DNA of 57,170 nucleotides from Deltaproteobacteria bacterium. Its GTDB lineage: Bacteria; Desulfobacterota; Syntrophorhabdia; Syntrophorhabdales; Syntrophorhabdaceae. Both the position numbers and the translations under genes were made by a program. Position 1 is the stretch's first letter. The number at the start of each line of letters is the position of its first letter. Below are positions 29,281-39,972 of the stretch, one piece after another. The DNA is taken from positions 1 through 57,170 of the forward strand of contig JAKPCK010000151.1 of the NCBI GenBank assembly GCA_029553295.1, read 5' to 3'. The notes beneath the pieces were generated by a model that was not told the DNA's origin, searched no databases, and was given only the letters and a program-made list of their open reading frames with translations.

Positions 29281-30661
29281 CTATAGTCTATTTTTGCTTA
29301 TATCTGCAATACCGTATTCCCTTATCTTCTGTCTGAGTGTAGGTCTTGAGATGCCGAGGATCTCACAAGCCTTCCCGAGATGCCAGTGTGTACTCTCCAA
29401 TATCCTGAGGATATAGCTCCTTTCAATCTCCTGAAGGGTAAGTTCACCCTTGATTTCAGCCCTGCTCTCTTGTTCCCTGCTCTGGGGTTTCTTTCCAAGA
29501 AGGGGTACTATAAGGTCCCCTGGGATTACATCACCCCTCGTATTTACAAATGCATGGGTCAGTATATTTTCCAGCTCCCTTACATTTCCAGGCCAGTTAT
29601 GGTCCATCATGCTCGATACAGCATGATCCTCCAGTCTTTTTGGTGTGCTTTTCAGTTCATAGGCTATCTTCTTTAAGAGATAATCTGCAATGAGAGGGAT
29701 GTCTGATTTTCTATCCCTTAATGGCGGGACTTTTATAGTGGTAACGCTTAGCCTGTAAAAAAGGTCTTCCCTGAATAGCCCCTCCTGAACCATCCCCCAG
29801 AGGTCTCTGTTGGTGGCGGCGATTATCCTTGCTTTTGAGTGAATCTGTCTATCTCCGCCTATCCTTTCAAACTCCTTTTCCTGTAAGAACCTCAATAGCT
29901 TTGGTTGGAGCTCAAGGGATATCTCACCTACCTCATCGAGAAATATAGTCCCTTCACCGGCAAGTTCAAATTTACCTTTTTTTTGTGTAGACGGCCCCGG
30001 TAAAAGAGCCTTTCTCGTGGCCGAAGAGCTCGCTTTCCAGAAGTGTCCCTACTATGGCAGAACAATTGATGATGCGAAATGGTTCATTCTTATATTGGCT
30101 GTGGGTATGTATAGCCCTTGCTATCAATTCCTTGCCAGTCCCTGTCTCCCCTTCTATGAGGACAGTGACCCTGTTTTCAGAGAGTATCCCTATAGCCTTA
30201 AAAACCTCCTTCATTATCCTGCTCTTACCAATTATCCTACCCTGTTCATAATCACATATGGCCATACCCTGGTTATCTTCATGGGGTTCTGTCTCAGAGA
30301 CACGGGATTTAAATGCCCTTATTATAGCCTTGTCCAGTTCCTCTACGTCTATAGGCTTGGGTATATATTCAAAAGCCCCTGATTTTACAGCCTTTATAGT
30401 AGTCTCCATGTCATGGAAGGCAGTTATTGTAATGATTTTCCTATTTTTTGATTTTATCCTTTCAATGAGGTCAATCCCATTCATGTCAGGCAGTCTTACA
30501 TCCAGGATTACCAGATCTGGATTAAAGGATTTGTTTTTATAAATGCCTTCTGCGGCATCAGCGGCGCACTCCACTGTATAGCCTTTTTCAGTAAGGAACA
30601 TCTCCAGGGATTCAAGGAGGGCTCGCTCATCGTCTACAATAAGGATCTTGCCTTTTTTCAT
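29281..30661 (-). pseudogene. NtrC-family sigma-54 response regulator, interrupted by a +1 frameshift in an A8 run
   Basis: Two reading frames together encode one 459-residue regulator. The first (30661 to 29972) holds the receiver domain (phosphoacceptor Asp54 in VILDVRLPD, KPIDVEE at about 104) and the first half of the AAA+ domain (GETGTGKELIARAI, then GSFTGA, the sigma-54 contact loop). It ends soon after YTKK. The second (from about 29970 to 29281) continues with KFELAGEGTIFLDEVGEISL, RIIAATNRDL, WPGNVRELENIL and a Fis-type HTH. The break is in eight A residues (29977-29984); seven would restore the frame. It follows the kinase gene with an ATGA overlap and probably drives the liv operon. 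Sequencing error, slippage or real loss cannot be told apart here. Confidence 0.85.
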
Positions 30662-32352: not shown

Positions 32353-32691
32353 ATGGATAAAAAAGAGGCTCAAAAGATAGAATGGCTTGATGAGTATAAA
32401 ACCCTGACTCTTGATGCCCTTGAGGCAGATGAATTGGATGCCTTCATGGAGATACTCTTAAAAAGAGATGCGTTGATAGGAAAGATAATAAAACAGGAAA
32501 TAAATCTCGAACCAGACGAGTTATCATATCTTATGGGCCTGGAGGGAAGGATACTGGAGAGGCTTGAGGAAGAAAGAAGGGAGATAATACACGATATGGC
32601 AGATGTAGGGGAGAAAAAGAGGGCCATAAAGAGATATACCCCAAAATTTCCATTTCCACCCATGCCTGCTTTTTTTGATAAAAAAGGATAA
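32353..32691 (+). CDS. FliT-like flagellar chaperone candidate
   Basis: A 112-residue, mostly helical acidic protein: WLDEYKTLTLDALEADELDA, RDALIGKII, LEGRILERLEEERREIIHD, and a C-terminal AIKRYTPKF. This size and pattern (RdaLI and a terminal K-x-x-Y) resemble small FliT/FlgN-type export chaperones, and the next genes belong to motility. The similarity is low, so the name is tentative. I chose ATG 32353, which has AGGGATAAAG upstream. An ORF extending to 32266 lacks a matching start signal. Confidence 0.55.
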   Translation: MDKKEAQKIEWLDEYKTLTLDALEADELDAFMEILLKRDALIGKIIKQEINLEPDELSYLMGLEGRILERLEEERREIIHDMADVGEKKRAIKRYTPKFPFPPMPAFFDKKG

Positions 32692-32699
32692 AATTTTAC

Positions 32700-32726
32700 T
32701 TAAGTTTTAAAAAATATATCCGATAA
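32700..32726 (+). promoter_or_regulatory. sigma-28 (FliA) promoter of the motA/motB operon
   Basis: TTAAGTTT, 11 bases, TCCGATAA: seven of eight bases match each half of the TAAAGTTT-N11-GCCGATAA consensus with exact spacing. It lies just after the FliT-like gene and before the small gene at 32744. It should start a late flagellar transcript through motB. Confidence 0.88.
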
Positions 32727-32743
32727 AGTCTACAGGTGAAGAT

Positions 32744-32983
32744 ATGACTATATCGGATTTTCAGATAAACAGTGTTATTAAAAGCTATACAAAAAATATG
32801 AAGTTTAGGGTCAAGGCCTTTGACTCAGACAAAAATGCAAATAACATTGTTCATGAAGACAGGGTTTTGATATCTGATGATGGAAAAAAGATGCTGCTGG
32901 AAAGGATTGGTGAAAAGACTGCGGAGAGGCTGAGAAGGCATGACAAAGAAGGATATGTTAATTCGGATTCTTATAGTAGATGA
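32744..32983 (+). CDS. small FlgM-associated-type protein (DVU0524-like)
   Basis: A 79-residue protein that opens MTISDFQINSVIKSYTKNM and contains EDRVLISDDGKKMLLERIGE. This pattern (short N-terminal helix, then a DRVxIS segment as in FlgM N-termini) resembles small proteins encoded with flagellar genes in sulfate reducers. Function is unknown; an anti-sigma-28 or export-related role is a guess from context. It is the first gene after the sigma-28 promoter and overlaps the following response regulator by about 44 bases. Confidence 0.6.
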   Translation: MTISDFQINSVIKSYTKNMKFRVKAFDSDKNANNIVHEDRVLISDDGKKMLLERIGEKTAERLRRHDKEGYVNSDSYSR

Positions 32984-33509
32984 TAATGCAGAGATTAGAG
33001 AAATTGTTAAGGAATACCTCACTGATGAAGATTGTCTGATTGAAGGCGCACAAAACGGTAAAGAGGCATTAGAGAAATACAACAAAAACCCCTACGATAT
33101 TATCATCACAGACCTGAAGATGCCAGAGTTATCAGGCATCGAACTTATAAAGCTGATAAAACAAAAAACAGATGCAACGGAATTTATTATCATCACCGGA
33201 TATGCATCCCTTGACACTGCTATGGAGGCAATAAAGATAGGCGCCTTTGATTATATTGTAAAGCCCTTCAGGATGGAGGAACTAAAGGTAGCGGTAAAGA
33301 ATGTAAAAGAGAAGATTGTTCTTAAAAAGACAAATCAGGTATTACTGGAAAAATTAAAGAACTTTTACAGTGAATTAGAGAGATACAGACAGACAGAAAA
33401 GGAGATAGCAGAACAAAAAAACGAGGGACAGAGATACGGGACAGAGAGACTTGTTAATGAGATAAAGCATCTTGAGAGATTGATAAAATCTCGTTTGATG
33501 ATTGAATAA
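32940..33509 (+). CDS. response regulator: receiver domain with C-terminal coiled coil
   Basis: A 189-residue protein with no output enzyme or DNA-binding domain. The receiver covers about residues 8-125: acidic pocket LIVDDNAE, phosphoacceptor Asp in DIIITDLKMPELSG, the conserved Thr region IITGYAS and Lys in YIVKPFRMEE. A charged coiled coil (about 135-189) follows. Such proteins usually work by protein-protein contact. The start is uncertain: ATG 32940 overlaps the upstream gene by 44 bases, while ATG 32955 follows AAGAAGG closely. It is in the motility operon. Confidence 0.85.
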   Translation: MTKKDMLIRILIVDDNAEIREIVKEYLTDEDCLIEGAQNGKEALEKYNKNPYDIIITDLKMPELSGIELIKLIKQKTDATEFIIITGYASLDTAMEAIKIGAFDYIVKPFRMEELKVAVKNVKEKIVLKKTNQVLLEKLKNFYSELERYRQTEKEIAEQKNEGQRYGTERLVNEIKHLERLIKSRLMIE

Positions 33510-33527
33510 AAATAAAGAGCGTGAGAT

Positions 33528-35009
33528 ATGCTTGAAGGTAAACATGTCCTTGTAGTTGATGACAACCTTGACATCATTGTTGCCCTGTCTGATTTCCTTG
33601 AATTAAACGGCTGCAAGGTCATATCTGCCACAACAGGCAAAGAGGCCATAGAACTCGTAAAAAACGAAAAAATCGAGATAGCCATACTCGATGTAAGACT
33701 CCCTGATATAAATGGCGTAACCCTCCTGGATATCATAAAAAAAGAAAACCCCACCATTGCCGTTATCATGATGACAGGATACAGCAGCCACAAGGATATA
33801 ATAGATGCCATGAAGAAGGGTGCATCTGACTTTCTCCTAAAACCTTTTGAATACGATAACCTGATTATGGTGATGATAAGGGCATTAAGGGAAAGGTCTC
33901 TTTTGATAGAAAAAGAAAGCCTATTTAAAAACCTGGAAGATAAGAAAAAAATAGAGCTTCTAAACAGAGAACTCCAGTCCAAGATCAAAGAACTGACAAC
34001 CATGTATAACATCTCTAACCAGTTCAATACATTAAATATCTACGATGATGTATACGATAAGATGGTCAATATTGCCTATGATGTGATTGGTGCAAGCCTA
34101 TGCAGGTTCTATATATATGACAGCAGCAGCGGAGAACCCATACTGTTTAAAGAAAAAAGAGATGCCAACGAGGACCTTGCAGAAGATAAGATATTTTTTA
34201 CCGGTGAACTGTCTGAATGGATCCGTAACCCAAAGAGGTATTTCCTTAAAGATGATATCATGGTCCTCCCCATTATGATAAAGGGAGAACTCATAGGATT
34301 CCTCACAGTCAAGAAGAAGAGAAACGGTTTAGAGGTAATAAGCACCCACCAGGATAGTGATTTATTCTTCCTAAAACTCATAGGAGAAAAGGCTTCCTCC
34401 CAGATTGAAAACAGGATCCTCTATGAAAGCCTCTTTGACAATGTATTCAAGACCCATATGTCGCTAATTACAGCCATAAACAAAAGGGACTCTTATACAG
34501 AAAACCACTGTAAGAGGGTAAATGATATGGCCCTCTCTTTAGCAGAAAAGGTTGGGCTAAACAATATAGAAAAGGATATCTTAAGGGTGGTTGCCCCTGT
34601 CCATGACCTGGGTAAGATCGGGGTGCCCGATGAAATACTCCTTAAGCCTGACAAATTGACAGATGTAGAGTATGAAATAATGAAAAACCACTCCATATTA
34701 GGCCAGGAGATATTAAGCCAGTTTGAGATACTATCAAGGGAGTCGGTAATCATAAGAAACCATCATGAGAGGTTTGATGGGAGAGGCTATCCTGACGGTA
34801 TATCCGGGGAGGCCATACCTGCCTGCGCCCGTATCATAGCCATATGTGACACCTTCGATGCCATGACAACAAACAGACCCTATAGGAGGGCGGTCAGCAT
34901 AGAGGATGCATTAAAAGAGATTCAAATGTGCTCTGGGAGCCAGTTCGACCCTATTATGGTAGAGGCATTTGTAAAGATGATATTAAATGGTAACCATGGA
35001 AACAAATGA
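33528..35009 (+). CDS. response regulator with HD-GYP c-di-GMP phosphodiesterase domain
   Basis: A 493-residue protein in three parts. The receiver (about residues 5-125) has the phosphoacceptor in AILDVRLPDINGV and KPFEYDN. A middle region of about 170 residues resembles a GAF sensor. The C-terminal HD-GYP domain has the metal-binding HD in VHDLGKIGVPDEI (about residue 362), HHERFDGRGYPDG (about 415) and the intact GYP signature. HD-GYP enzymes break down cyclic di-GMP, lowering it and favouring swimming. It lies between a second response regulator and a PilZ protein in the same operon, so c-di-GMP removal and sensing are placed beside the motor genes. Confidence 0.93.
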   Translation: MLEGKHVLVVDDNLDIIVALSDFLELNGCKVISATTGKEAIELVKNEKIEIAILDVRLPDINGVTLLDIIKKENPTIAVIMMTGYSSHKDIIDAMKKGASDFLLKPFEYDNLIMVMIRALRERSLLIEKESLFKNLEDKKKIELLNRELQSKIKELTTMYNISNQFNTLNIYDDVYDKMVNIAYDVIGASLCRFYIYDSSSGEPILFKEKRDANEDLAEDKIFFTGELSEWIRNPKRYFLKDDIMVLPIMIKGELIGFLTVKKKRNGLEVISTHQDSDLFFLKLIGEKASSQIENRILYESLFDNVFKTHMSLITAINKRDSYTENHCKRVNDMALSLAEKVGLNNIEKDILRVVAPVHDLGKIGVPDEILLKPDKLTDVEYEIMKNHSILGQEILSQFEILSRESVIIRNHHERFDGRGYPDGISGEAIPACARIIAICDTFDAMTTNRPYRRAVSIEDALKEIQMCSGSQFDPIMVEAFVKMILNGNHGNK

Positions 35010-35577
35010 GAGAAGAGACTACTTCAGGGTTGAGGACAGGCTTAAATTAAAATTCCGTATATTAAGCAAAGACGAGTTCAATGCCCTTGAACATACTGTA
35101 AGATATAGCCCAATCAGCAGCTTTAGCAGGCTGGATGAGGTCCAGGCATTGAAGGTTATAGAGATAGATGAGGAAAAAAAGAAGGACCCTCTCTATACAT
35201 ACCTTAATATTATAGATAGAAAGCTCGATCTGGTTCTGGACTACCTGATGGAAAATGCTGATGACAAAAGGCACTATATTACCCAGTACATACAGGCAAA
35301 CATAAGCGGTTCAGGTATAAGGTTTTTCACAGATGCTGATATAAAAGAAGGTGATTATGTGGAGCTCATCCTCATATTGCCAATCTATCCCCATACAAGA
35401 ATACCGATTTTATGTAATGTCTTACGATGTATCAAGCAGATAAAAGATGGAAATACTGTTAATGATGTGGCCATGCAATACCTTGTAATAAACGAAAACG
35501 ACAGGGATATGCTGATACAGTATATATTTATGAAGGAAAGGGAGATGCTCCGCAATAGAAGTGAATCCACTGGATGA
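34987..35577 (+). CDS. PilZ-domain cyclic di-GMP receptor
   Basis: A 196-residue protein with the two c-di-GMP-binding motifs of PilZ split by a helical insertion. RxxxR is in ERRDYFRVE at the N-terminus (about residues 9-14) and the (D/N)xSxxG motif is NISGSG (about 109-114). The insert at about 45-100 and the long N-terminal part recall YcgR-like flagellar brake proteins. It overlaps the HD-GYP gene by 23 bases and precedes motA by six, fitting a role in linking c-di-GMP to motor function. ATG 34996 (METNERRDYF) is an equally good start. Confidence 0.82.
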   Translation: MVTMETNERRDYFRVEDRLKLKFRILSKDEFNALEHTVRYSPISSFSRLDEVQALKVIEIDEEKKKDPLYTYLNIIDRKLDLVLDYLMENADDKRHYITQYIQANISGSGIRFFTDADIKEGDYVELILILPIYPHTRIPILCNVLRCIKQIKDGNTVNDVAMQYLVINENDRDMLIQYIFMKEREMLRNRSESTG

Positions 35578-35583
35578 TGACCT

Positions 35584-36351
35584 ATGGATATAACAACTAT
35601 ATTCGGCCTGATAATTGGTATAGGTGCTGTGTTGGTAGCCTTTATAATGGAGGGAGGCCATCTATCGTCCCTAATCCAGGCCCCTGCCATGATATTGGTT
35701 ATATTTGGAACAATAGGGGCAACCATCATAACAACCCCCTTCAACCAGCTAAAGGCCCTGCCAAAGCTGTTGAGCGTTGTCCTTGTTGATAAAAAGCTTG
35801 ATTTCCACAGACTTATTGATTTGATATGTGACCTTGCCCTAAAGTCAAGAAAAAACGGGCTTTTGAGTCTTGAAGATGAACTCCCCAAGATTAAGGATAA
35901 TTTCCTAAAAAAGGCTGTTCAACTATCCATAGATGGTTTTGAGACGAATAAGATAAGGGAGATTCTGGAGATAGAGATGTCATACATAGAGGAGAGACAC
36001 AGGGTAGGGGCTATGTTTTTTCAGAAACTCGGTGGGTTCTCACCAACACTGGGTATAATCGGCACTGTCCTTGGCTTGATACACGCCTTAGGCAGTATGG
36101 AAAACAGCGCAAACATGGCATCATCTATAGCCACTGCCTTTATTGCCACCCTGTGGGGTGTTGCCCTTGCAAACCTTATATACCTCCCCATATCTGATAA
36201 ACTAAGGGCAAAACACCAGGATGAGGCCCTTTATCTCGATATGATATGTGAGGGTGTAATCTCCCTTACCATGGGTGAAAACCCCAGGATAATAAGGATG
36301 AAACTCATGTCCTTTTTGCTCCCAAATAAGAGAAGCGGTGATATAAAATGA
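35584..36351 (+). CDS. motA: flagellar motor stator protein MotA
   Basis: A 255-residue protein with four membrane segments, two near the N-terminus (ITTIFGLIIGIGAVLVAFIM and IQAPAMILVIFGTIGATIIT) and two late. The conserved proline is in SPTLGIIGTVLGLIHALG (about residue 155) and the last helix is in TAFIATLWGVALANLIYLPI. The cytoplasmic loop between helices 2 and 3 carries the charged residues that touch FliG. Together with MotB it forms the proton or sodium channel that turns the flagellum. It overlaps motB by four bases. Confidence 0.95.
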   Translation: MDITTIFGLIIGIGAVLVAFIMEGGHLSSLIQAPAMILVIFGTIGATIITTPFNQLKALPKLLSVVLVDKKLDFHRLIDLICDLALKSRKNGLLSLEDELPKIKDNFLKKAVQLSIDGFETNKIREILEIEMSYIEERHRVGAMFFQKLGGFSPTLGIIGTVLGLIHALGSMENSANMASSIATAFIATLWGVALANLIYLPISDKLRAKHQDEALYLDMICEGVISLTMGENPRIIRMKLMSFLLPNKRSGDIK

Positions 36352-37058
36352 GAAAAAGAAACAACAACAATAATGAACATGAAAACCTTGAGAGGTGGCT
36401 CCTTACATACGCAGACTTGATAACGCTACTTCTGGCATTCTTTATAATGATGTATACATTCTCAAAACAGGATTCACAGAGATACGAAGAGGTGTCGTCA
36501 TACCTTAAGGCTATATTTTCAGGAGGAACAGGTGTGCTCCAGAAGGGTAATGTTAGTGGGGCACCCCCCATTGAACTGCTTTCAGGCAAGGCTCTATCAG
36601 AGGGGTTGAGAGAAAAGCTCGATGCTGAACTAAAAGCTATAACAGGGGAAAGCGACCTTAAAAATAGCATATTTATTTTTACAGATGAGAGGGGTGTTGT
36701 TATAAGGATTATGGATAAGGCATTCTTTGATGAGGGAAAGGCAGAACTAAAACAAGGTGCAAAAAATGCCCTCGACAAGATTGCATATATTATTAAGGAT
36801 ATAAAAAATCATATCAGGATAGAGGGCCACACAGACAACACACCTATAAGTAAAGGTGAGTTTAAATCCAACTGGGAGCTATCTGTAAGAAGGGCAACAG
36901 AGGTTGTAAGGTATCTTATAGAAAAAGGCCCTATACCCCCAGATAGGATTTCTGCTACAGGCTATGCAGAATATAGACCTATTGTGGATAATGATACCCC
37001 TGAGAACAAGGCATTAAACAGAAGGGTAGAGATTATTATAGAAAAAACAGGTATATAA
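36348..37058 (+). CDS. motB: flagellar motor stator protein MotB (OmpA-like C-terminus)
   Basis: A 236-residue protein. The N-terminal membrane helix holds the essential channel aspartate in RWLLTYADLITLLLAFFIMM (about residue 22). A linker follows, then the OmpA/MotB peptidoglycan-binding domain with IRIEGHTDNTPIS (about 160) and LSVRRATEVVRYLI, ending NRRVEIIIEK. It anchors the stator to the cell wall. It is the last gene of the operon. The 129 bases after it hold a small hairpin (ATATCC-TAAT-GGATAT) and a copy of the dispersed repeat. Confidence 0.94.
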   Translation: MRKRNNNNNEHENLERWLLTYADLITLLLAFFIMMYTFSKQDSQRYEEVSSYLKAIFSGGTGVLQKGNVSGAPPIELLSGKALSEGLREKLDAELKAITGESDLKNSIFIFTDERGVVIRIMDKAFFDEGKAELKQGAKNALDKIAYIIKDIKNHIRIEGHTDNTPISKGEFKSNWELSVRRATEVVRYLIEKGPIPPDRISATGYAEYRPIVDNDTPENKALNRRVEIIIEKTGI

Positions 37059-37150: not shown

Positions 37151-37188
37151 GATATGCCCGAGAGCATGAGCCCTTTTTCAAAGGTCTC
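37151..37188 (-). repeat. dispersed short repeat, copy carrying both halves
   Basis: On the minus strand, GAGACCTTTGAAAAAGGGCTC is followed by ATGCTCTCGGGCATATCC. This joins in one copy the hairpin half seen at 282-302 and 13984 with the CTCTGGGGCATATCC half seen at 18281 and 29226. It ends at the stop codon of the hybrid kinase. Confidence 0.55.
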
Positions 37189-39131
37189 TATTTCTCCGAA
37201 CACACCATGTTTATGGTGTTGATTAATGCCCGGCCTGTATAAGGCTTGTCAAGAAAGCCATTGACATGATGTTCCTTGAATGATTGCTTCTGTGTCTCAT
37301 TCATATAACCGCTGGATACAATAATCTTTACATCTTTATCCATAGCCCTTATCTCTTTTAAGACCTCATCCCCTTTTTTACCGGGCATTATCATATCGAG
37401 TATTATCACATCTATCTTGTCTCTGGTGTTCTTAAACATATCAACAGCCTCATATCCGTCCTTTGCCTCTATAACATGGGCACCTGATGCCTTTAATATG
37501 CCCCTTAAAAAATCCCTTATAAATTCTTCATCATCCACAACAAGGATTTTTAGACCAGGCTTAAGGTTTACGTCCTTCTCTTCCTTTTTGTCTGATGAGG
37601 TATCCCCTGTACCTCCCGTATATAAAAGAGGTAGATATATGATGAACCTTGTCCCCTCCTGGGGTCTGCTATCTATCTCAATGGATCCTCCGTGATTTCC
37701 TATTATTTGTTTTGCAATATAAAGGCCCATACCCAACCTGTTATCCACCCTCTTTGTTGTAAAATAAGGTTCAAAGACCTTTTTCATAATATCCTTTGTC
37801 ATGCCAGGTCCATTATCCCCTATCTCGATAACTACAAACCCCTTTTTATTCTTCAGATATTTAATGTTCGTTGATATGCTTATAATACCCTTCCCATCCA
37901 TTGCATCCTTGGCATTTACAAGGATATTCAGGAGGACATTCTGTATATCTGTCTCATCCCCTTTGATGGGAGGTAGCATATCAGAGAAGTTCTTCTTGAC
38001 CTCTATGTCCCTGTAACTCTCTCTGAATATAAAGGCCAGGTCTTCAATGATGGCGTTGACATTTACAATACCGTCTCTTTTTGTCCTCCTCCTGGAAAAA
38101 TTCAACAGGTGATGGGCAAGTTTTGTTGCCCTCTGGGCAGCATTCTCAATGGCCACTGTATATTTCAACAGCCTGCCTTCTTCCTTCAGAAAGCTCTTCA
38201 TAAGGGATGTGTATCCGACTATCCCTGTGAGCAGGTTATTGAAATCATGGGCAAGACCACCGGCAAGGAGGCTTAAGCTCTCCATATTTTTTATCTGATG
38301 GTGGTATTCATCTTCAATCTTCTCCTGGGAGGTATCATTCAGTATAAGACACCTCATACTACCTATTCCATTATTTTTCTCACCAAGGGGGTAGCATTTA
38401 AGCCTGAATACCCTGTAATCGTCTCCTAAAAGATACTCAACCCTGCCCTCAACAGGAGACGGGCTCTCAAAGATATAATCACTGACATCAAAGATATTAT
38501 TAAATCTCTCGCCAATCAGAAACCGATTCTCCACAGAGAATTCTTCCTCTGCCTTTTTATTTATATAATGGATATAGCCCATATTATCTATTAAAAAGAC
38601 AGGCTCAGGAAATAGGTCTAATGACCTCTTGTAGACCAATATATCAGATTTTTTTTCGTATTCATGAGAGGGTATGGGGTTAACAAAGATCAACTTGTTG
38701 AATATATTGCACAACATCCTGAGTTCCCTCATAAAGGACTCTGTCATGACCTTTTTCTGTTCTGACCCTAAAATAATATAGCCAATCCTCTCTGTCTCAT
38801 TATATATCAATGGATATACATAAAGGATGTTGTAATTGAAGCAGTTGCTTAAGATAAAGGGGGAAAAGGCATGGGCGTAGTCTTTTTTTATAACCTCCAG
38901 GTCAATATTATCGACTGCACCATCAATACTAAAAAAACCATATTCCCTGTTTTTTTCATCCTCTATGGTAATCTTGCATACCTCAAAGGGCAGCTCCTCA
39001 ACGAAAATAACAGGGGCCTCATGAAAAAGATTTTTTTTGTTGTCTTTGATACTTAAGAGTCGGAGGATAACTGAATAATTCTTTATAGCCCTTTCATAAA
39101 AATCCCACTGATAGTTTACGGGTTCTGACAT
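37188..39131 (-). CDS. hybrid sensor histidine kinase (GAF-like, PAS, HisKA, HATPase, receiver)
   Basis: A 647-residue soluble kinase. The N-terminal 175 residues look like a divergent GAF domain. A PAS domain follows (FLIDNMGYIHYINKKAEEEF), then the phosphoacceptor His in LAGGLAHDFNNLLTGIVGY. The ATPase boxes are NILVNAKDAMDG, GDNGPGMT and RLGMGLYIAKQI. A C-terminal receiver carries Asp in VIILDMIMPGKKG and the KPYTGR lysine. I chose ATG 39131, preceded by AGGATAGGGAT, over one six codons upstream. It starts just before the HDOD gene ends, so the two form an operon behind a sigma-28 promoter, which suggests a role in motility or chemotaxis control. Confidence 0.9.
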   Translation of the reverse strand: MSEPVNYQWDFYERAIKNYSVILRLLSIKDNKKNLFHEAPVIFVEELPFEVCKITIEDEKNREYGFFSIDGAVDNIDLEVIKKDYAHAFSPFILSNCFNYNILYVYPLIYNETERIGYIILGSEQKKVMTESFMRELRMLCNIFNKLIFVNPIPSHEYEKKSDILVYKRSLDLFPEPVFLIDNMGYIHYINKKAEEEFSVENRFLIGERFNNIFDVSDYIFESPSPVEGRVEYLLGDDYRVFRLKCYPLGEKNNGIGSMRCLILNDTSQEKIEDEYHHQIKNMESLSLLAGGLAHDFNNLLTGIVGYTSLMKSFLKEEGRLLKYTVAIENAAQRATKLAHHLLNFSRRRTKRDGIVNVNAIIEDLAFIFRESYRDIEVKKNFSDMLPPIKGDETDIQNVLLNILVNAKDAMDGKGIISISTNIKYLKNKKGFVVIEIGDNGPGMTKDIMKKVFEPYFTTKRVDNRLGMGLYIAKQIIGNHGGSIEIDSRPQEGTRFIIYLPLLYTGGTGDTSSDKKEEKDVNLKPGLKILVVDDEEFIRDFLRGILKASGAHVIEAKDGYEAVDMFKNTRDKIDVIILDMIMPGKKGDEVLKEIRAMDKDVKIIVSSGYMNETQKQSFKEHHVNGFLDKPYTGRALINTINMVCSEK

Positions 39132-39138
39132 AATATCC

Positions 39139-39972
39139 CTATCCTGCATGGGAATTTATATTTATTATCGCCATATTCTTTTTTACCTCCATTCTGATAT
39201 TGTTCTTTTCTTTAAGAAGTATCAGTTTTTCAGGGCTGCCGTTTGTATCCTGACAGTAAAAAAACCCATCGACCAACCTCGTGATCTTAAGAAGGTTTCT
39301 GTTGTTATTCTCACTGTTACATGTGTTATGATGATTGCCTATGACAGAGCAGACCGTCTCAGGTAACCTCCATTTTTTCGCAATTATATATCCTATCTCC
39401 TGGTGGTCTATGCCAAAACACTCCCTCTCTGTCTCCCATATAGGTCTTTCTCTTACATCAACCCCATGGGTTATTTTACTGTAGTCATCTATCTCAGAAT
39501 AAAAAACCATCTTTCCAATGTCATGGAGAAGGGATACAATATAGGCCTTCTGTGGTTCATAATCAAGGGTCTTCTCTGCCAATATCTTTGCTGAATGGGC
39601 AACATAGATAGAATGCCTCCAGAATTCAAGGAGGTCGCTAAACCTTATCTTTAATTCCTTCAGTAGATTATCCACTATAAGAAGGCATAGTATAACATTT
39701 TTTAATTCATTAAGCCCTATCTTTATCAATGCATGATGCAGGTCACAGGTATTGGTCCCGCGGTTATAATATGCAGAATTGGCTATACCGAGGATCTTGG
39801 CAGATATGGATGGGTCTATCTCAATAATCTTGAGTATATCAGTTATCGATGATGCTGGGTTTGTTACAGTCTCAATTGTCCTGTCTATTATACACTGCAT
39901 TGATGGTGCGAGTTTAAGTTCATAGGTCTTAGAAAGCAGTCTTTGTCTTATCACAATCACCTCAGGATACAT
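39139..39972 (-). CDS. HDOD-domain signalling protein
   Basis: A 277-residue protein in which residues about 15-215 match the HDOD fold: ILKIIEIDPSISAKILGIAN, ALIKIGLNELKNVILCLLIV and SLLHDIGKMVFYSEI, with HHxTC-like HHNTCN near residue 225. HDOD proteins are relatives of HD-GYP domains, generally without phosphodiesterase activity, and act as regulators in motility, stress and c-di-GMP networks. It is first in a two-gene unit with the hybrid kinase. A sigma-28 promoter sits about 140 bases upstream. Confidence 0.9.
   Translation of the reverse strand: MYPEVIVIRQRLLSKTYELKLAPSMQCIIDRTIETVTNPASSITDILKIIEIDPSISAKILGIANSAYYNRGTNTCDLHHALIKIGLNELKNVILCLLIVDNLLKELKIRFSDLLEFWRHSIYVAHSAKILAEKTLDYEPQKAYIVSLLHDIGKMVFYSEIDDYSKITHGVDVRERPIWETERECFGIDHQEIGYIIAKKWRLPETVCSVIGNHHNTCNSENNNRNLLKITRLVDGFFYCQDTNGSPEKLILLKEKNNIRMEVKKNMAIININSHAG

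Follow-up and report, generated by a model that had tools for sequence, protein, structure and literature searches.

A conserved flagellar locus of Syntrophorhabdia encodes a helix-inserted PilZ protein between a receiver-HD-GYP protein and a MotAB-type stator

PilZ proteins that brake flagella are known already, as are tetrameric PilZ proteins, and there is a solved tetrameric PilZ structure without the motifs for binding cyclic di-GMP (c-di-GMP). According to the passages of PMC8203827 on these proteins, MotI of Bacillus subtilis (also DgrA or YpfA; structure 5vx6) is a PilZ protein that acts on MotA, FlgZ of Pseudomonas binds MotC, and MotL of Shewanella putrefaciens is a bare PilZ domain whose gene adjoins motAB; for MotL and FlgZ, the passages mention no neighboring HD-GYP regulator. 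XCC6012 of Xanthomonas (structures 3ph1 and 3rqa) is described in passages of PMC3131395 as a PilZ barrel with 57 inserted residues and long helices after strand 1, which self-assembles through a three-turn heptad in the second inserted helix, lacks complete RxxxR and D/NxSxxG motifs, and shows no reliable c-di-GMP binding; those passages are silent on the motor. A 2025 paper listed among the references of PMC11870540 concerns, by its title, a tetrameric PilZ protein, in our reading FlgX, that stabilizes the stator ring of Campylobacter jejuni. A Xanthomonas complex of the receiver-HD-GYP protein RpfG, a GGDEF protein, and a PilZ protein acts, according to passages of PMC3749722, on PilT and PilU of the type IV pilus rather than on a flagellar stator. 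The locus described here lies at positions 32,353–37,058 of a 57,170-base stretch of DNA, referred to as the window, which is contig C95 of a metagenome-assembled genome (MAG) from the class Syntrophorhabdia of the Desulfobacterota, a group of syntrophic bacteria (G000, 2.25 Mb in 157 contigs). In it, gene order ties a helix-inserted PilZ protein whose c-di-GMP motifs are intact both to a stator, as for the bare PilZ domain MotL, and to an HD-GYP protein, a predicted c-di-GMP phosphodiesterase. This pairing spans the whole class and, in parts, its phylum; in searches of open-licence PMC papers, the operon was the subject of no title.

The PilZ gene was searched for in 46 genomes of the class and was matched in 36. 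Up to 8 kb on either side of the match was fetched for 34 loci; the window's own genome and G043, in which the match is split, gave none, and L033 was dropped as a duplicate of L034. The order HD-GYP, PilZ, MotA on one strand is found in all 34 class loci, with a median gap of 6 nucleotides between PilZ and MotA and a median overlap of 17 nucleotides between HD-GYP and PilZ. All seven genes of the window's locus are present in 21 of them; in the other 13, the contig ends inside the operon (several loci, on short contigs) or one of the two small upstream genes, FliT-like and DVU0524-family, has no match. Among the class genomes the PilZ gene goes with flagellar genes: 33 have both PilZ and Flagellin_N, three PilZ only, three flagellin only, and seven neither (Fisher p = 2e-4), and the corresponding numbers for FlhA are 32, 4, 3, and 7 (p = 6e-4). 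The PilZ and Flagellin_N genes lie 5–33 kb apart on one contig in 17 of the 36 PilZ-bearing genomes, and in L063 the gene order is flagellin-FlbT-FlaF-DVU0524-operon. The PilZ profile matches 193 of 394 phylum genomes, some over partial length. Of 40 outgroup loci, picked by hand from the PilZ profile matches listed for genomes of other classes, 18 have an HD-GYP gene immediately upstream of PilZ, 15 a receiver upstream of that HD-GYP, and 10 motAB next to PilZ (downstream in four and upstream in six). The class joins two PilZ pairings that are mostly separate elsewhere and, because HD-GYP and motAB each occur as partners of one PilZ family, PilZ may, by this indirect argument, link the two.

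The operon PilZ protein scores 36.7 bits against PF07238, above the curated cut-off of 22.5, and has both motifs for c-di-GMP, RxxxR at residues 10–14 (Arg10 and Arg14) and NISGSG at residues 105–110 (Asn105, Ser107, and Gly110). Arg10, Arg14, Ser107, and Gly110 are invariant in the 34 aligned members, an alignment that omits L064, where the open reading frame (ORF) runs into unknown bases. In classical PilZ domains the two motifs are separated by a few tens of residues; in these 34 members, 87–95 residues, largely helical, lie between the second Arg and the Asp/Asn position. The AlphaFold2 model (mean predicted local distance difference test score 78, with residues 1–11 and 44–61 below 50) consists in this part of a strand at residues 14–26, helices at 28–40 and 68–92, and a strand at 98–107, so that in the model, as in XCC6012, strand 1 is followed by two long helices and a heptad runs along the second of them. 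The heptad positions, Leu69, Leu73, Ile76, Leu80, Val83, and Leu87, are hydrophobic in 88–100% of members, and the protein is probably oligomeric. Within the same helix Lys79, a candidate contact site, is invariant (34 of 34) and has a neighboring Leu and Asp in 32 of 34 each.

In a Foldseek search with the model, the best match spanned the whole chain and was to the tetrameric XCC6012 (E = 2e-5, TM score ~0.5), with a root mean square deviation of ~7, meaning that parts are differently placed; the next best was MotI/DgrA (E = 2e-4). VIA scored MotI highest (Z = 14.0, 109 residues) and gave XCC6012 a Z of 12.0 with 164 residues aligned. Many other PilZ domains reach VIA values of 9–12, so the match of the barrel is a match to the fold; among the matches listed, only XCC6012 aligns far beyond the barrel. 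The operon protein differs from XCC6012, to which it is 13–20% identical, in keeping both c-di-GMP motifs, and from MotI in having the insert where, in the passages of PMC8203827, MotI has a YcgR-like N-terminal domain. FlgX, on the reading given above, is described as a tetrameric PilZ protein that acts on a stator ring, in a motor of the complex kind. An N-terminal YcgR-type domain is absent from the operon protein, which is 196 residues long and has its RxxxR motif from residue 10 onward, and none was found in the Pfam scan. Only PF07238 is listed at E ≤ 1, with no match to the family of XCC6012 itself (tPilZ in Pfam). For that reason the protein is not filed as a member of that family; it is filed as a PilZ protein and not in the XCC6012-type or YcgR/MotI/FlgZ subfamilies. 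An earlier note, made from the DNA letters alone, had called it a PilZ receptor, which agrees with the domain and its motifs, but it is not a plain one, being helix-inserted and closest in fold to XCC6012 and MotI.

The HD-GYP protein has PmGH (4mcw) as its best solved relative (E = 3e-45) and shares with it the GAF-HD-GYP layout, the HD and GYP motifs, and seven of eight metal ligands, but it has an extra receiver and a Tyr at the position of Glu185, a metal ligand in PmGH (passages of PMC4159591). The GAF domain itself is below the cut-off (E = 0.044, 14.8 bits versus 22.4). Residue counts were made on sequences above chosen score limits, namely 35 for HD-GYP, 31 for the receiver-coiled coil protein, 35 for MotA, and 33 for MotB. 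His327, His359, Asp360, Lys363, His388, His412, His413, Gly420-Tyr421-Pro422, and Asp441 each occur in 35 of 35 sequences, so that HD, GYP, and the seven shared ligands are complete throughout, and the Tyr (Tyr323) replaces the Glu or Asp of the trinuclear subgroup in 35 of 35; a Tyr or Phe at this position marks an HD-GYP subgroup that passages of PMC4159591 give as predicted to be binuclear. Passages of PMC4114195 report that three receiver-HD-GYP proteins of Desulfovibrio vulgaris convert c-di-GMP to pGpG, the isolated domains being more active than the full-length proteins. The receiver of the HD-GYP protein has its Asp, Thr, and Lys nearly throughout (Ser for Thr in two sequences, and two rows are fragmentary), and the receiver-coiled coil protein has Asp58, Thr86, and Lys108 in 31 of 31 and no recognized output domain. 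A hybrid kinase gene and a gene for an HDOD protein (window 37,188–39,972, minus strand) converge on the operon, as they do in L034, L035, and L038, and the kinase is a possible partner of the two orphan receivers. The earlier note spoke of a phosphorelay-driven enzyme; the Asp kept in both receivers would allow such a drive, but the operon has no kinase. The ligand could be supplied by GGDEF proteins, of which the genome has nine matches; PilZ matches number two. The best NCBIfam model of MotA is PRK09109, “flagellar motor protein,” which we take to represent the MotC group, so that this MotA would be MotC-like, as is the target of FlgZ. For MotB the best model is MotD, with a score below that model's cut-off, and Asp23 is kept in 33 of 33 sequences.

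Two relatives have a further motAB pair (L151, 13,703–16,571, and L163, 6,432–9,318), and it too is directly followed by a receiver-HD gene; the product has HE in place of HD, lacks GYP, and is probably inactive. Both stator operons of these relatives carry a receiver-HD-type gene.

Seven separate plus-strand ORFs fill the region by ORF calls, Pfam, and NCBIfam (Table 1), with Response_reg, HD_5, PilZ, MotA_ExbB/MotA_N, and MotB_plug/OmpA above the Pfam cut-offs. The gene list of the earlier note, which ran from a FlgM-associated-type protein and the two receiver proteins to PilZ and MotAB, is correct. A gene fusion was rejected, and the word “fused” does not apply, there being seven distinct ORFs and no fusion at the protein level. 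The junctions are, in gene order, +52, −44, +18, −23, +6, and −4 bases, so the overlaps or gaps under 30 bases that had been claimed are found at five of the six junctions and not at the first. If the FlgM-associated protein was meant to be the product of the first ORF, it was assigned to the wrong gene. In the second gene, the match to NF041863 (“DVU0524 family FlgM-associated”) is 21.9 bits, below the cut-off of 40, and all 26 aligned family members match that model at E ≤ 0.01 (best 3.8e-10). The first gene belongs to a family in which 13 of 26 members match Pfam FliT at E ≤ 0.1 (best 3e-4); the window protein itself matches weakly (E = 0.13), and in Foldseek the FliT structure 3a7m comes up with no better than E = 4.5. 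A FliT-like assignment is tentatively preferred over FlgN because the genus carries a separate FlgN next to FlgM. Matches of the first gene to Protein Data Bank profiles, mostly of helical protein A constructs, were taken as the chance matches of a helical bundle. The proline-rich C-terminal tail of the FliT-like family is conserved in the alignment.

The 52-base gap between these two genes contains TTAAGTTT-N11-TCCGATAA, which has two mismatches to the FliA (σ28) consensus TAAAGTTT-N11-GCCGATAA and ends 17 nucleotides before the DVU0524 ORF. It is the only site in the window with three mismatches or fewer, where the mean expected by chance is 0.49. The site was sought near the DVU0524 start in 26 sequences, which are 25 class loci and the window, with control stretches from the same loci. 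A DVU0524 match is missing in 8 of the 34 class loci, L035, L036, L043, L049, and L054 being cut by the contig end and the others being L060, L062, and L064; L044 has no upstream sequence. The best match has one mismatch in one sequence, two in 12, three in three, four in eight, five in one, and six in one. Two mismatches or fewer are thereby found in 13 of 26 sequences versus 3 of 1033 controls, and four or fewer in 24 of 26 versus 15 of 1033. Where the annotated start is not an upstream alternative, the site mostly ends 16–19 nucleotides upstream of the ORF, so at the level of the motif a FliA-type promoter of a late flagellar operon is present at the right distance. In the same genus, FlgM carries a site of this type that is one mismatch off the consensus (L152 and L153). 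Thirteen outgroup loci match DVU0524, and in nine of these there is a site with two mismatches or fewer. Most loci have no comparable site before the FliT-like gene; L038, L041, L045, and L051 have one with four mismatches. Because the conserved σ28-type site separates the first and second genes, the FliT-like gene is probably on another, upstream transcript, and the operon proper probably starts at the DVU0524 gene. Of the two options, a start at the σ28-type site was judged likelier than a single transcript from the first ORF, although readthrough from the first gene may occur. The description of the locus as one operon is upheld by conserved, touching or overlapping genes, intact motifs, and the flagellar context, with the exception of this first gene.

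Table 1. Features of the locus and its convergent neighbor, in window coordinates
Feature	Position	Strand	Basis
FliT-like small helical protein, 112 residues	32353..32691	+	Pfam FliT in family members
σ28 (FliA)-type promoter-like site, TTAAGTTT-N11-TCCGATAA	32700..32726	+	motif match
DVU0524-family (FlgM-associated) small protein, 79 residues	32744..32983	+	NF041863
Response regulator, receiver and C-terminal coiled coil, 189 residues	32940..33509	+	Response_reg 8e-33
Receiver-GAF-like-HD-GYP protein, predicted c-di-GMP phosphodiesterase, 493 residues	33528..35009	+	HD_5 6e-35, Response_reg 5e-28
PilZ protein, 196 residues	34987..35577	+	PF07238 5.5e-9; alignment; AlphaFold2 model; fold matches
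MotA-type stator subunit, 255 residues	35584..36351	+	MotA_ExbB 4e-29; NF006583 252.4 bits, cut-off 237
MotB-type stator subunit, MotB_plug and OmpA-like, 236 residues	36348..37058	+	MotB_plug 4e-20, OmpA 1e-23
Hybrid histidine kinase, PAS-HisKA-HATPase-receiver, convergent neighbor	37188..39149	-	Pfam

These features suggest a local brake or clutch on the motor. A late σ28-type flagellar operon of the class would make a MotC/MotD-like stator together with a unit that controls this stator through c-di-GMP, and the FliA-type promoter would time expression late, after completion of the hook. The PilZ protein would oligomerize through the inserted heptad helix, bind c-di-GMP through RxxxR and NxSxxG, and act from the cytoplasmic side on the co-encoded MotA, so that at high c-di-GMP it would slow or disengage the stator. 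The receiver-GAF-HD-GYP protein, gated by phosphorylation of its receiver, would hydrolyze c-di-GMP and relieve PilZ, and the coiled-coil receiver may share or modulate the phosphoryl input. The PilZ protein would work like MotI, FlgZ, or MotL and have the body plan of XCC6012, and the joint action of a receiver-HD-GYP protein and a PilZ protein on a motility motor would parallel the RpfG complex. Local control of the motor by c-di-GMP was also the proposal of the earlier note, and it is what we infer here; taken as a whole, the brake reading has in our estimate a slightly better than even chance of being right, and if it is, the setting of stator loading by c-di-GMP in such motors becomes testable. 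Several observations weigh against it. The Asp/Asn at position 105 of PilZ is kept in 25 of 34 members and replaced in nine, PilZ is the fastest evolving of the four operon genes compared, and the operon itself contains no kinase gene. Both HD-GYP and motAB are beside PilZ in only 1 of the 40 outgroup loci (L126), and the full pairing is on that account largely specific to the class. The window's own MAG, which is 96.8% complete, has no match to Flagellin_N, FlhA, Flg_bb_rod, or FliG_C, no rod or hook match, and no FliA above the level of RpoD.

The whole-chain fold match to a tetrameric PilZ protein, the conserved heptad, and the near-fixed 6-nucleotide spacing between PilZ and motA would also suit a structural role, in which a constitutive PilZ oligomer holds or loads stators in a wide ring, c-di-GMP tunes or releases them, and motility needs PilZ. 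The title of the C. jejuni paper points the same way, as does the report in passages of PMC11870540 that deletion of flgX halves the cage units, like deletion of motA. Loss of PilZ would then abolish swimming and not make it faster. This alternative is rather unlikely in our view, since no motor role is known for XCC6012 and the c-di-GMP motifs, which are needless in a purely structural part, are kept in most members. A related idea, which we put forward tentatively and with slightly more belief, is a stator clamp gated by c-di-GMP, a PilZ tetramer of the kind that stabilizes stator rings but, unlike XCC6012, with both motifs kept, made with the stator and a dedicated receiver-HD-GYP enzyme under σ28; right at the motor, a phosphorylation input would then decide whether stators are loaded or released. 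If true, it would connect second-messenger control with the structural, tetrameric PilZ proteins found in complex motors. The HD-GYP protein might instead be a scaffold like RpfG that contacts PilZ directly, possibly with a GGDEF protein, its enzyme activity being secondary. The overlap of the two genes in the class, their adjacency in 18 of 40 outgroup loci, and the HD-GYP/GGDEF/PilZ complex that acts on PilT/PilU in passages of PMC3749722 are in its favor, but a scaffold would not need the core catalytic residues that are kept in all 35 sequences, and we consider it improbable. That the genes are grouped for convenience, co-expressed as late flagellar genes with PilZ and HD-GYP serving targets other than the stator, is a little less improbable; the σ28 site by itself would explain the grouping, and outgroup PilZ genes are often without motAB (adjacent in only 10 of 40), but the closeness of PilZ to motA throughout the 34 class loci and the outgroup members of the same PilZ family that adjoin motAB in either order argue for a tie to the stator. 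The nucleotide could also be 3′,3′-cyclic GMP-AMP (cGAMP), or both nucleotides, with the HD-GYP protein turning over cGAMP from promiscuous GGDEF enzymes. The second solved HD-GYP relative is indeed a cGAMP phosphodiesterase (5z7c), but the best relative, PmGH, is a c-di-GMP enzyme, and this version is very improbable.

The missing flagellar genes of the window's MAG raise the further possibility that the operon is a relic in this organism, an insertion sequence (IS) having broken a gene that borders the flagellar genes, with loss of the flagellum. Both genus-mates, G005 and G006, have flagellar structural markers, and G006 also has FliA. In G005, the flagellar cluster lies next to another motAB pair and a gene for a receiver-HD protein (HE for HD, no GYP), and in G000 the matching receiver-HD gene is cut by an IS, with the last ~70–80 codons remaining on contig C154, which ends in the IS copy. 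The IS encodes a DDE transposase and has perfect 19-nucleotide terminal inverted repeats, and the last 140 bases of C154 are the end of an IS copy also present on contig C58 (these two contigs are L161 and L166). With an IS end found there, a plain gap at the end of C154 is not the sole option; either the flagellum may have been lost or the assembly may break off at the repeat. For the branch of the window, changes polarizable with G005 give nonsynonymous to synonymous counts of 1:34 for MotA, 0:22 for MotB, 5:39 for HD-GYP, and 6:12 for PilZ, compared with 5:35, 6:23, 6:57, and 9:12 in the flagellated G006. A control gene gives 11:89, to which the operon genes of the window are similar except for the faster PilZ. 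These counts indicate purifying selection on the operon genes along the window's branch, and because selection is no more relaxed than in G006, any loss of the flagellum was probably recent. Since contig breaks at IS copies are also ordinary assembly gaps, we regard a relic as improbable, about as much so as the scaffold. Another genome, G038 (L051), likewise carries the operon and gives no match for flagellin, FlhA, rod, or FliG; there the contig stops within motA.

The window has neither tRNA nor Rfam matches, and a generic scan of it for promoters and terminators gave nothing usable above shuffled sequences. An NtrC-type regulator gene (window 29,281–30,661, minus strand) is broken into two ORFs at an A run, and its counterpart in L034 is a single ORF of 434 residues that reaches the contig end; the split reflects an error in the sequence or a gene that is broken. 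Large genes upstream of the operon in L040, L045, L060, and L066 resemble, by eye, those of glycosyltransferases or cobalamin/radical enzymes and are possibly involved in flagellin modification.

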